A stretch of 54,071 nt of DNA from Thermoplasmata archaeon (GTDB lineage Archaea; Thermoplasmatota; Thermoplasmata; Thermoplasmatales; Thermoplasmataceae), in NCBI GenBank assembly GCA_021792655.1, contig JAJYUG010000002.1, positions 1 through 54,071 on the forward strand. The letters are read 5' to 3'. The notes below the pieces were generated by a model. It made no database searches and was not told where the DNA came from. It saw only the letters and a program-made list of their open reading frames with translations. Shown here piece by piece: positions 6,664 through 33,670 of this stretch (positions are counted from its first letter, which is position 1; every line of letters starts with the position of its first letter). A program made the position numbers and the translations under genes.

Positions 6664-7998
6664 TCAGTCTTCTCTGCTGACGCTGTCAAATCCGGTGTAG
6701 GGCACAAGCACATCTGGCACCTTGAAGGATTTCCCTCCATCGTACTGGAAATTCTCCATAATTGCCACCAGTATTCTCTTCGTGGCTATTGCAGTGCCAT
6801 TCAGAGTATGGACATACCTGTTTCCGTCCTTGGTCCTGTATTTTATTCCAAGAGACCTTGCCTGGTAATCCGTGTCATTGGATATGGAAACAATCTCCCT
6901 GAACTTTCCCTGCGACGGGAACCATGCTTCCATGTCGTATTTTTTCTCTGCAAGGTATCCGAGTTCTCCGGAACAGACATTGACTATCCTGTACGGAATT
7001 CCAAGGCTCTGGTATATTTTCTCGCTGTTGGCAACGATCTCAGCAAAATAATCCCAGGAATCTTCCGGTTTGCAGAAAATGAACTGCTCGACCTTGTTGA
7101 ACTGATGCACCCTGAATATGCCCTTTGTATCCTTTCCATGAGCGCCCGCTTCCCTCCTGAAACACTGTGAAGCTCCCGCTACCCTCTCCGGGAGATCGCT
7201 CTCCTCGAGAGTTTCATCCTTCAACATTGCAGCTATTGCATGCTCGGAAGTAGAAATCAGGTAGAGGTCCTCCCCCTCTATCTTGTAGAGCGAGTCCTTG
7301 AATGTCTCTATGTCTGTCGCTCCAGCCATTGATTCATAGTTGATCATCAACGGCGGCTCAAGCACGGTGAATCCCCTCTCGGCGAGGAAGTCCGTTGCGT
7401 AGTTTATCAGGGCCTGCTCGATCTTGAAGAGCCTGTTCTTTATGAAGAAGAATCTTGCTCCGGAGATTTTCCCTGCCCTGTCCAGATCAACGAGGTCGAG
7501 ATCCTTTATCATGTCAACGTGGCTTACGGGTCTGTCGTCAAGAAGTTCGTAATCCCCGGAGTTGCCTGAATCCCTCAGGAATGTATCCCTGTCATCGCGG
7601 AAAACCCTGGCGTGCCCGGTGTACCTGACAAGTTGGTTGTTTTCGTCACCCCTGCAAACAGGAACATCGTCATGGATCAGGTTGGGTATGAGCCGAAGTG
7701 TGCCATCCCGTTCGTCTGAAATTTTTTTCTGTGCTTCCTCAAGGTTGCCAATGCGATCGTTCAATGCCTTGACCATGCCCTTTTCTTTCTCTACACCGGA
7801 TCCGGTCTTTACGTTCCTGGCGATTACCTCAGTAAGGCTGTTCTTCTCATGCTTCAGATCGTTGATCTCCCTCAGCTTTTCCCTCCACGCCTCGTCAAGC
7901 GTGAAGAACCTGTCAAGAACTGACGTATCAAAGAAGCGTTTCTTGCAGGAATCGTAGAATATCTCGGGCTTCTCCCTCAGGAGCTTGACATCTATCAT
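6664..7998 (-). CDS. serS: Seryl-tRNA synthetase, class II (bacterial/standard type)
   Basis: Charges tRNA-Ser (and tRNA-Sec where present) with serine. The 444-aa protein has the N-terminal long coiled-coil tRNA-binding arm (about 30-110). The class II catalytic core follows: motif 2 with FRREAGAHGKDTKGIFRVHQ and motif 3 with NGTAIATKRILVAIMENFQ. This is the standard SerRS, not the rare methanogen type. A TATA-like AATTATTATA lies about 25 nt upstream of the ATG on the minus strand, so the gene has its own promoter. Confidence 0.96.
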   Translation of the reverse strand: MIDVKLLREKPEIFYDSCKKRFFDTSVLDRFFTLDEAWREKLREINDLKHEKNSLTEVIARNVKTGSGVEKEKGMVKALNDRIGNLEEAQKKISDERDGTLRLIPNLIHDDVPVCRGDENNQLVRYTGHARVFRDDRDTFLRDSGNSGDYELLDDRPVSHVDMIKDLDLVDLDRAGKISGARFFFIKNRLFKIEQALINYATDFLAERGFTVLEPPLMINYESMAGATDIETFKDSLYKIEGEDLYLISTSEHAIAAMLKDETLEESDLPERVAGASQCFRREAGAHGKDTKGIFRVHQFNKVEQFIFCKPEDSWDYFAEIVANSEKIYQSLGIPYRIVNVCSGELGYLAEKKYDMEAWFPSQGKFREIVSISNDTDYQARSLGIKYRTKDGNRYVHTLNGTAIATKRILVAIMENFQYDGGKSFKVPDVLVPYTGFDSVSRED

Positions 7999-8175: not shown

Positions 8176-9069
8176 ATGACCTTCTGCCCCGTGTGCGGCT
8201 TGAAATTTGATAGGGGGAACTACCGCATGCTTGCGGATCATTTTGTTGATCAATCCAGGGCAAGCGATTTCCGGCACATTTCATGGCTTAACAGGAATGT
8301 TTCAAAGGATCTCATGAAGGCGGAAGACCTTTCAGTTTCCCTGATGACTTTCTACCATATTTCTGGTGGCATTGGAAAGTGGATAATTACTGATTTTGTG
8401 AGAAGATTCAGGGGAGATTCTCCGCATCCCTTCATACTGGCTATGCAGCAATACGACCCTGAAGTGATCAGGGGCTATGTGGTAGAGCACCACCACTTCC
8501 TGAAACAGTGGATAAGGTCATGCTCATACATCATCGCGAAGACCGAATTCGAGGATGTCCAGTCCTTTGAACTGGAGAACATAATGACAGAATTGCACGG
8601 ATATGGTGCCTCGGAGCCCTCACACCACGAGCTCCTGATCAGGATGGGGGAATCGCTGGGACTTGACAGAAATTTTATTCTGGCAGAAAAACCGCTGAAG
8701 CAAACTGTGGAAGCCATAAAGATATGGAATGACCTTGCCGCCTCTGGAAGCTGGATATCAGCAATGGCAGCCATGCATTCCCTCGAACTAATTGCAAACC
8801 GTGATCTTTCAAACCATGGTGCTAGATACCCTTATTTCAACCCCTCAATCCTGTCAGATAAAATGGTTCCGGAAGAGGTTAAGACGTTCCTGAGGGAAGG
8901 GTATGAAGCCGATGTTTCCCATTCCTACACGGCACTACAATTGGTTGAAAGGCACGCAAGGAATGAAGACACTGAGGAGATACAGTACGCTTATTTGCGG
9001 TCTGCCGAGGCCTTCAGCGATTATCTTGAGGCTAGGCTGGAAAGAGGTGTTATGCTTGGAAACAAATAA
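8176..9069 (+). CDS. Zinc-finger plus heme-oxygenase-like (TenA/PqqC/HDO fold) protein
   Basis: A 297-aa protein with an N-terminal metal-site candidate (Cys4, Cys7, His22, His34), followed by an all-helical domain of the TenA/PqqC/heme-oxygenase-like superfamily. Residues 132-163 carry a segment typical of the iron-containing oxidase branch, with acidic and His positions Glu134, Glu139, His141, His150-His151 and Glu152, and a later SHSYTALQLVERH helix. I infer a possible diiron oxidase, but thiaminase-like or non-enzymatic roles remain open. I chose ATG 8176 because a TATA-like CTATATCTA lies about 25 nt upstream; the TTG at 8155 would fall on that box. The gene overlaps the next one by 14 nt. 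Confidence 0.7.
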   Translation: MTFCPVCGLKFDRGNYRMLADHFVDQSRASDFRHISWLNRNVSKDLMKAEDLSVSLMTFYHISGGIGKWIITDFVRRFRGDSPHPFILAMQQYDPEVIRGYVVEHHHFLKQWIRSCSYIIAKTEFEDVQSFELENIMTELHGYGASEPSHHELLIRMGESLGLDRNFILAEKPLKQTVEAIKIWNDLAASGSWISAMAAMHSLELIANRDLSNHGARYPYFNPSILSDKMVPEEVKTFLREGYEADVSHSYTALQLVERHARNEDTEEIQYAYLRSAEAFSDYLEARLERGVMLGNK

Positions 9070-31446: not shown

Positions 31447-31607
31447 GCTGAATTCACTTTCTCCTGCCAAAAGCCAGAAATGTGATGTTTCTTACCCATC
31501 AGTCAACATAAATGAGAAATGGCTCGGCTTTTTTAAAGACTTTTCAAACCCTTAGCTCCGTACTCTCTTAGATGCCGATGAAAAAGGTTCTTATATTTCT
31601 TGGTGAG

Positions 31608-32057
31608 ACTTCTTCCTAAGAAGTTTCTCGCAAAGGAAAGCCCGTGTTATTACCAATTGAAATTTTAAGGGCTTTCCTGCGAACCCCCTCCCCGCCGAGC
31701 GTAGCAGGTCTGAACGTAGTGAAGACCTGAAGTGAAGACCTGAAGTGTTCCAAAGGGACACGTAGCCCACACGTGTGAAACACGTGGGGGTGCGTAGCAT
31801 AGGACACGAGGGGTTGGTGGACAGCCCAAAGGGCTGGACAAATCAGGGTAATAGGCTGTCCCGAAGGGACAAGTGAACGGCGAAGCCGGACACGTGGCTA
31901 TCCCTGATTAGACCTCCGAGACGAGCGAAGGCAAAAAGAGGGGGGAATGTGTGAGCGAAGCGAACAAAGGAGGGATGAATTTTTGCCGTAGCGAAAGCCC
32001 GTACTCCGTGCAGGAGGCGGGAGTGTCGCAGAGTGTCCTGTGTTACGCTCGGCGGGG
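31608..32057 (+). ncRNA. GC-rich, hairpin-dense structured locus; candidate novel non-coding RNA
   Basis: A strikingly GC-rich stretch inside A/T-rich island DNA with no plausible gene. A 17-nt stem joins 31690-31706 to 32041-32057, closing a domain that contains many hairpins. Clear ones are 31746-31760 (AAA loop), 31761-31794 (GAA loop), 31822-31836 (AAA), 31857-31871 (GAA) and 31878-31888 (GAA). An eight-pair stem (31841-31848 with 31902-31909) encloses the last two. Another stem pairs 31930-31937 with 31980-31987. Outside it, 31628-31682 forms a 14-pair hairpin and 31608-31624 a seven-pair one. A TTATATTTC at 31591-31599 could be its TATA. Three imperfect pairs (31704/32043, 31749/31757, 31763/31792) are G-U only if + strand RNA is transcribed. 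Function and family are unknown; a MITE-like DNA element is the main alternative. Confidence 0.6.
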
Positions 32058-32085
32058 TAAGCTAAAGCGGACTACAAAGCGTATT

Positions 32086-32098
32086 TATAGTTAATTAC
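32086..32098. repeat. Left terminal inverted repeat of IS630-type element
   Basis: TATAGTTAATTAC, the exact reverse complement of 33140-33152. An extra imperfect match runs further inward. Confidence 0.85.
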
Positions 32099-32131
32099 TA
32101 ACATTATTATACTTATTAACATTAGATTTTC

Positions 32132-33139
32132 ATGGTCAAAACGGAGATGTATCACATCGAGAGGAAGATGGATGAAGATGATCTGGATCGGTTGATAAAA
32201 AGCCTTGAAAGAAGCACAAAGGTTCTGAAAAGACTCCTTTTTGTTAAGTACAGATACGATGGTGATTCTGTCCGGGAAGCTGCAAAGAGAATCGGAATAA
32301 CGAAGATGATGGGATACGCATGGCAGAGGAGATGGAATCAGGATGGATACAGAGGCCTTATGCCGAGATACGCAAGGAAGGGGCCATCAAAGATGTCTGT
32401 GGAACAGAAAGAAATGCTGAAGGAGAAGCTTAAAAACGGGGAGTACACAACCTCTCAGGTCAGGGATATGATAAGGGATGAATTCGGGATAGAATATACA
32501 ATGAAGCAGGTATGGGCCATATTGAAGAAGATGGGCATGAGGTATGCGAAGCCATACCCTCATGACAAACGCAGGCCAAGAGATGCGGAAAACGTTCTAA
32601 AAAAAACTTAGGCAAAATATCCCTGAAGGAAAACGTATTAGGATTCCTGGATGAATCTGCACCACAGACTACGGCGAACACGGTTAGATTATGGTCTTTC
32701 AGTAAACCTGAGATCATCAGGGATACTTCAAAATATAAGGCGAATACATTCGGTTTCTACGCAATGAACGGTAGCAGCGTTGTTGATTTTCAGGATCGCT
32801 CCAGGAAGGAAAACGTAACTTCTTTCATAAGGGAGATAAGGGAAAGAAATCCTGAAAAGCCTGTAGCCATAATACTGGACAATTTCAGATCACACCATTC
32901 AAAGACCGTTTTAGAAGCTGCTGAATATCAAGCTGATATTCCTTCCACCGTATTCTCCCGATCTGAATCCAATAGAATTCATATGGAAAAGCATCAAGAG
33001 AACCGTATCCATAGCGCCAATAGATTCAGAAGGCGACCTCAAAGATGCCATAAAGAAGAGCTTCATGGAATTTTCAGGAAGGCTAACATTTGCAAAAAGC
33101 TGGGCAGAGAATTCCCTAAACAAAAATATAATTATGTAG
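32132..33139 (+). pseudogene. IS630 family DDE transposase, frameshifted
   Basis: The reading frame is split twice. The first part (32132-32611) is the N-terminal HTH half (SVREAAKRIGITKMMGYAWQ). A -1 shift at an A8 run (32599-32606) is needed to continue into the catalytic half with the first Asp (LGFLDESAPQ) and ILDNFRSHHSKTV. A second, +1 shift near 32912-32930 leads to LPPYSPDLNPIEFIWKSIKR with the final Glu. IS elements often use programmed -1 shifting at A-runs, so the first break may be functional, but the second looks like real decay. The ending stop is at 33137-33139. Confidence 0.85.
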
Positions 33140-33152
33140 GTAATTAACTATA
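33140..33152. repeat. Right terminal inverted repeat of IS630-type element
   Basis: GTAATTAACTATA, directly after the transposase stop codon, exact inverse of 32086-32098. Confidence 0.85.
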
Positions 33153-33670
33153 ATTGGATAAGGGATAATAAGATAGGAATGTCGTAAAGAAAACTAATAA
33201 TATGTTAGATGTGGCTTCCAAATAATAGATACCCGTGTGCCTCTCCTGACTTTGCTCGCGTATATGGAGGGTCCTCGTTCTGCCGAGCATTATAAAAAAT
33301 ACTCAAAACCTTTTAGAATGTAGCTATAAGTAATAATAGAAAACCAATTCTAACTAGACGTGGAATAATCGCCTCTATCTAATCTATTAACCTTCAATTA
33401 ATATAAGATAAGTAATACGACTTGATGGTTTACGCTTTTCCCATAAAAGTATTCTTTTACCAGAAAACCTATTATGACTACTATGTTGATTTCTTCCCTT
33501 TGATTTGATCATCCCCCCTCTCTTTAACTTTTCTGGTAACTTTGTATGTTCTACTATTCACCGCAGTGCGGTATTCTGACTTCCATTTACAGGGATGCCG
33601 GAACCAGTCTTAATTGGGCTGCATTGCAGCATGTACACTATCGGCTCCGGTCACGCCTCTCATACTCAAC
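33153..33670. other. A/T-rich stretch without a gene
   Basis: No frame with plausible protein content and no RNA gene found on either strand. A short palindrome ACCGC-AGT-GCGGT occurs near 33560. The region probably represents decayed mobile DNA, given an IS110 fragment that follows. Confidence 0.4.

Follow-up and report, generated by a model that had tools for sequence, protein, structure and literature searches.

What is a GC-rich, hairpin-dense block of some 450 bases that carries no evident gene, and might it act as an RNA? This question is raised by a locus near position 32,000 of the window, by which we mean the whole analysed stretch of 54,071 nucleotides, taken from a Thermoplasmata archaeon genome of 1.36 Mb in 84 contigs (G000). 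GC content is 0.55-0.57 across 31700-32000 against about 0.40-0.43 in the surroundings, in agreement with the GC-rich non-coding block of about 450 bases described in an earlier note on this DNA; the A/T-rich island that had been drawn around it was not recovered, since the flanks are not unusually A/T-rich. A protein-coding gene was rejected, as only short ORFs occur and by inspection no reading frame is preserved across relatives. The dense folding previously seen on paper holds up in calculation: the + strand RNA of 31600-32075 folds at -209.3 kcal/mol, compared to -157.0 +/- 6.6 kcal/mol for shuffled sequences (z -7.9; none of 100 shuffles equal), and the minus strand reaches z -6.7. The energy gap between the strands was discarded as evidence for strand, because the shuffled difference (-21.9 +/- 6.8) shows that composition explains it. 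Among the 4227 Rfam families, including GOLLD, ROOL, HEARO, group II introns, RNase P and SRP, none matched the window RNA at gathering score, so the Rfam comparison proposed earlier returned no family, and the best sub-threshold matches (E up to 10) are chance. A scan of the window together with nine loci of relatives yielded tRNAs only, plus part of a group II intron in L112, at a distance of about 3 kb. Plasmid and phage collections contained no match.

Homologues, covariation and strand

The earlier note had proposed a search for homologues and covarying stems, and both were found. By blastn against 60 relatives, full-length copies of the RNA in the form seen in the window (window type) were identified in five genomes of other genera at 82-88% identity, one of which (G042) belongs to another family, and no copy was found in the three congeners searched. 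High identity in so scattered a distribution points to horizontal transfer. The alignments start at about 31595-31628 and stop at 32048 in the closing stem, and homology to these five genomes, from about 31595 to 32048-32057, sets the conserved unit at 31595-32057 on the + strand, about 460 nt. Counting against an RNA gene, no conserved promoter was detected upstream of the 5′ hairpin, because homology begins abruptly there. The complete genomes G014 and G015 and the other-genus genomes G092 and G107 have 7-8 kb around the RNA copy in common at 99.9% identity.

In an alignment of six window-type sequences 97.6% of cells are paired, and 22 of the 135 pairs have changed in a compensatory manner, compared to 5.6 +/- 1.9 in shuffled alignments (0/500), while control structures slid by 1-3 columns gave 0-3 compensatory pairs. 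The locus is thus a conserved structured element with strong covariation, and its structure is under selection. For the strand, we used a Watson-Crick-only fold of the six relatives, so that the folding algorithm could not favour wobbles. Read on the + strand, the departures from this fold comprise 15 distinct G-U and 1 A-C; for the minus strand the counts are 1 and 11. The argument that imperfect pairs are G-U on the + strand and A-C on the other, made originally from the window alone, is therefore upheld at the level of the family. For the second form of the RNA (type A, see below) the ratio is 16:9, a weak bias that is uninformative.

Architecture and the G-rich module

All features of the window copy are given on the + strand. 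The 5′ domain comprises hairpin 1 (ACTTCTTCCTAAGAAGT, 31608-31634), followed by TCGCA and known also from remnants beside tRNA genes in other genomes, and hairpin 2 (TCGCAAAGGAAAGCCCG...AGGGCTTTCCTGCGA, 31628-31682), whose arms are invariant and whose AT-rich loop is conserved in the six-sequence alignment. The C-tract ACCCCCTCCCC (31683-31693) could, judging from its sequence, form pairs with G-tracts in the module described below. It overlaps the 5′ strand of the closing stem (CCCCGCCGAGCGTAGCA, 31690-31706), which contains the family-conserved core CCCCGCC and pairs with the 3′ strand (TGTTACGCTCGGCGGGG, 32041-32057).

The earlier note had described this closing stem as a 17-nt pairing that encloses the core of the locus. 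The pairing itself is real, with 17 nt paired and one G-U, but only the outer 7 bp (CCCCGCC/GGCGGGG) and a few further pairs are common to the relatives, which have a shorter closing helix, and the unit begins further 5′, at about 31595, with the 5′ hairpin domain (31608-31682) included. The inner half of the stem furthermore competes for 32041-32050 with an 18-bp long-range helix of the covariation fold (GTGC...CAGGACAC, 31790-31807, with GTGTCCTGTG..., 32033-32050), which is homologous in type A and to which the adjacent strand belongs in the relatives, because a small deletion in the window copy joined the closing strand to the end of this helix.

Within the enclosed region, the hairpin AGGTCTGAAC.../GAAGACCT (31707-31740) shows compensatory change at four of seven pairs in the alignment; in the window it also contains a 13-nt tandem duplication (31715-31740) that the relatives do not have. 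The covariation fold continues with the hairpins GTGTTCC-AAA-GGGACAC (31745-31761) and CCCACACGTGT-GAA-ACACGTGGG (31766-31789) and a branched domain (31809-31917) with compensatory change at 10 pairs, which consists of two helices (31809-31815/31911-31917 and 31841-31856/31896-31909) and three hairpins (31818-31840, 31857-31871 and 31873-31893). Pattern and covariance model then place the G-rich module at 31930-31987, where the stem GGCAAAAA/TTTTTGCC encloses GAGGGGGG...GGAGGGATGAA and an inner hairpin. The 3′ hairpin domain of the covariation fold (31991-32029) has the helices 31991-31994/32026-32029 and 31997-32007/32013-32022.

The module follows the motif CAAA-GAGGGGU-(inner stem or 2-3 nt)-GGGGUGAA-UUUG. 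Its outer stem showed 55 two-sided cells compared to 15.9 in shuffles (0/500), and the G-rich loop is nearly invariant within freely covarying stems. With regard to a possible RNA G-quadruplex, in which four G-tracts would fold into tetrads, the tracts of four G, which are paired per module, are near-invariant as well, with several copies being without one tract. Window-type RNAs carry one module, whereas type A RNAs carry two, about 100 nt apart. Both forms have the long-range helix (GCACAGGACAC/GUCCUGUGC in type A), and the 5′ domain of type A (hairpin, TCGCA, hairpin, GCGAA or CGAGAA, CCCC) is cognate to that of the window type.

A pattern scan of 85k genomes recovered the module in many Thermoplasmata, four Micrarchaeota and two Thaumarchaeota, with bacterial matches being without the stem. 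The covariance model detected it in 32 of the 117 genomes of the order, with 1-6 matches each, and in one further genome of the phylum sample outside the order. The micrarchaeal and thaumarchaeal occurrences were confirmed, as was one on an IMG/VR contig (L155); the Bacteroidota control lacked the module. The micrarchaeal and thaumarchaeal members have the module and the style of GAA- or GUA-capped stems in common, and little other sequence. On the viral contig L155 an A/T stem with no resemblance to the others holds the module, with 16 perfect pairs that mostly fall outside the search pattern, and the module adjoins a type I-like methyltransferase/specificity gene. The other viral matches of the pattern scan (L027, L028, L153, L154 and L156-L159) look like chance and were set aside, leaving L155 alone as convincing. 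Beside the L155 module (1210-1320 and 1440-1490), a hairpin-rich stretch after a small ORF resembles an integron attC site (TTATAACG...TTGTTATACG). At another place, in Micrarchaeota ARM-1 (L030, about 7170-7250, minus strand), a type A 3′ module comes immediately after the final repeat of a CRISPR array. The GGGG tracts of the element in Thermogymnomonas acidicola (L068/L011), plus one outside it, are all lengthened to 7-8 G, which is possibly a homopolymer sequencing artefact.

Integrative elements and cargo loci

Where its context is well resolved, the RNA lies in mobile or exchangeable DNA. Integrative elements harbour the window-type copies. That of G015 encodes a divergent SSV-like tyrosine recombinase that abuts tRNA-Val and is followed by a HerA/AAA-like ATPase and small genes; the G005 homologue of this recombinase has a Phage_integrase match (E 0.004). 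The 12-nt end of the tRNA-Val (CGGTCGGGCCCA) is repeated 12.3 kb away, with the RNA enclosed between the two. The cargo beside the RNA in this element is RiPP-like (radical SAM, nitroreductase/SagB-like, MFS). Cargo of this kind, with radical SAM/SPASM, occupies L022 2640-6518 and L023 3701-7827. The RiPP-like block of L025 lies on the opposite side of the RNA in L023, and in L025 the 3′ tail of the RNA occurs as an 88% direct repeat across that block (728-822 and 8284-8376). L002, L010 and L014 contain truncated 5′ domains close to tRNA-Leu and tRNA-Val genes, probably left behind by earlier integrations.

The window copy is itself a remnant, with a structurally intact RNA and a decayed element. 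About 25 nt past the unit, and outside the RNA, lies an IS630-like insertion (32085-33153, + strand) with imperfect terminal repeats (TTATAGTTAATTAC/GTAATTAACTATAA) and broken or frameshifted transposase ORFs. Element sequence resumes beyond it at 33178-33431 (+ strand; 80% to G016, L003), and 23 nt at 32051-32073, covering the RNA end and the bases just beyond, are identical to G016. No element proteins remain in the window, the comparison with congener G002 aligned the upstream permease alone and gave no clean empty site, and a search for a second copy of the tRNA-Val end present in the window, as a direct repeat, produced matches of 13-15 nt at most, which are unconvincing. Since the element is a remnant and the module has lost part of a G-tract (GGAGGGA), the window copy is possibly inactive and may no longer be functional. 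A related IS is found in L025 (G032) on the same side of the RNA as in the window.

With an IS630-like element adjoining the RNA in both the window and G032, partial copies beside tRNA genes and internally deleted derivatives, the family might be thought a non-autonomous transposon (MITE) or an IS end with no independent function. We consider this very improbable, given 1-6 copies per genome, the lack of uniform ends or target duplications, flank searches that returned no repeat family, compensatory evolution across helices, and IS630 ends that lie outside the RNA. A match to an IS end or MITE, which the earlier note had named as evidence against its RNA reading, is thus disfavoured.

Type A RNAs are accompanied by cargo that is non-homologous between loci: type III-like helicases, SNF2-PLD, ThaI and MjaI R-M systems, N6/N4 methyltransferases, a toxin of the ParE family accompanied by a small ORF that resembles an antitoxin, and Orc1/Cdc6 (PDB 2v1u, 2qby) with a resolvase. 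Of the 28 distinct type A loci, 25 have R-M or helicase-nuclease genes 3′ of the RNA, often ending ≤10 bp from it, with gene calls made by Pfam on representatives of blastp clusters rather than on each gene. An Rfam match to a group-II-D1D4-4 intron lies near the type A locus of L112 (7254-7413, minus strand). The position of type A directly 3′ of R-M operons in convergent orientation, together with the G042 copy that begins 14 bp past a radical-SAM gene, would suit a cis-acting 3′ structure of cargo genes that lie upstream or converge on it, such as a terminator or an element for processing or stability; this is nevertheless improbable, since the element is far larger than any terminator, window-type neighbours occur in every orientation, and the strand bias points to the strand antisense to the R-M genes.

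Pairwise extents of similarity show type A RNA at the exchange junction of cargo. The same left flank and RNA are followed by unrelated cargo in L117/L138, L148/L149/L066 and L121/L123, and the same RNA and cargo stand behind different left flanks in L122/L138/L143. A folded single-stranded DNA site for recombination or exchange would produce this pattern, if one strand folded during replication or transfer and the recombinase of the element swapped R-M, toxin or RiPP cargo. Such a site would also fit the 3′ ends of type A within a few bp of cargo genes, a resolvase in L117 (Pfam match) with a homologue in L144, the ssDNA fold of the window sequence (z -9.1) and the hairpins at the 5′ boundary. 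Homologous recombination through the 450-bp conserved block gives the same pattern, however, the loci do not all share a HUH or IntI-type recombinase, and neither an att core nor a target duplication was found. The strand-biased G-U pairs of the window type suggest an RNA, though single-stranded DNA used on one strand would show the same. We regard a DNA site as unlikely, if by no means negligible.

In pairs of type A loci with a shared but diverged R-M gene, identity reaches 89-92% for the RNA, compared to 72-78% for the gene DNA and 80-83% for the protein. This constraint would reflect either strong selection or homogenisation by recombination between copies, and both would fit an active role; the high identity need not mean purifying selection, as gene conversion between copies could produce it.

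Possible role and comparison with known systems

Taken together, the locus probably encodes a large structured noncoding RNA (about 460 nt, putative) on the + strand, carried by integrative elements of the Thermoplasmatales. That it would function as RNA we infer from the conserved fold, the strand bias of the window type, the module, and the mobile and exchange context. The earlier suggestion of an undescribed archaeal structured RNA stands insofar as no Rfam family matches and none of the open-licence papers searched describes this family or a transcript of it; it does not extend to a stand-alone host RNA gene, as the RNA belongs to integrating mobile elements and to loci with exchangeable cargo. 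Judging from the sequences, the family is a previously undescribed set of putative folded RNAs or folded DNA sites that move between archaea inside mobile elements.

As a noncoding RNA, it might form a branched scaffold whose G-rich modules, one in the window type and two in type A, would bind a protein or ligand; alternatively, type A might bring four G-tracts together. It would then serve maintenance of the element or exchange of cargo, and not the host. More tentatively, the family may be a new archaeal RNA class around the invariant GAGGGGU/GGGGUGAA internal loop, common to Thermoplasmatales, Micrarchaeota, Thaumarchaeota and viruses and used by mobile elements for self-maintenance or for loading and swapping R-M and toxin cargo. 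An archaeal RNA family tied to integrative elements and unrelated defence systems would offer a handle on how such elements persist and how their defence cargo comes to be exchanged, including between hosts and their DPANN partners, and it can be tested directly with the help of the intact copies and the covariance model.

To our knowledge, large structured noncoding RNAs without known function come almost exclusively from bacteria and their phages. RNAs of the GOLLD and ROOL type are carried by phages or mobile elements, as is the archaeal RNA here. HEARO and the omegaRNA of IscB and TnpB transposons are likewise structured RNAs in mobile DNA, but differ in structure from our family, which has no Rfam match and no IscB or TnpB gene beside the loci examined. 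Integron attC sites and the hairpin ends of IS200/IS605 are also rich in hairpins, favour one strand and lie beside exchangeable cargo; in contrast, the family here is much larger, its members read by eye have no GTTRRRY core, and no matching recombinase is common to the loci, a resolvase being present in two. We know of no large structured RNA of such kind in SSV-like or pTN3-like elements. These tRNA-integrated archaeal elements (PMC8371274) have a tyrosine recombinase beside the tRNA target and a HerA-like ATPase, as do the window-type elements. GOLLD, ROOL and other large ornate bacterial noncoding RNAs (PMC12286853) are, like the RNA here, several hundred nt long, multi-branched and of unknown function, from which it is set apart by its archaeal origin, its G-rich module and the lack of an Rfam match. 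Large ornate noncoding RNAs of this sort (GOLLD, ROOL; PMC12286853) appear to be the closest kinds, and, by behaviour, attC-like folded sites.
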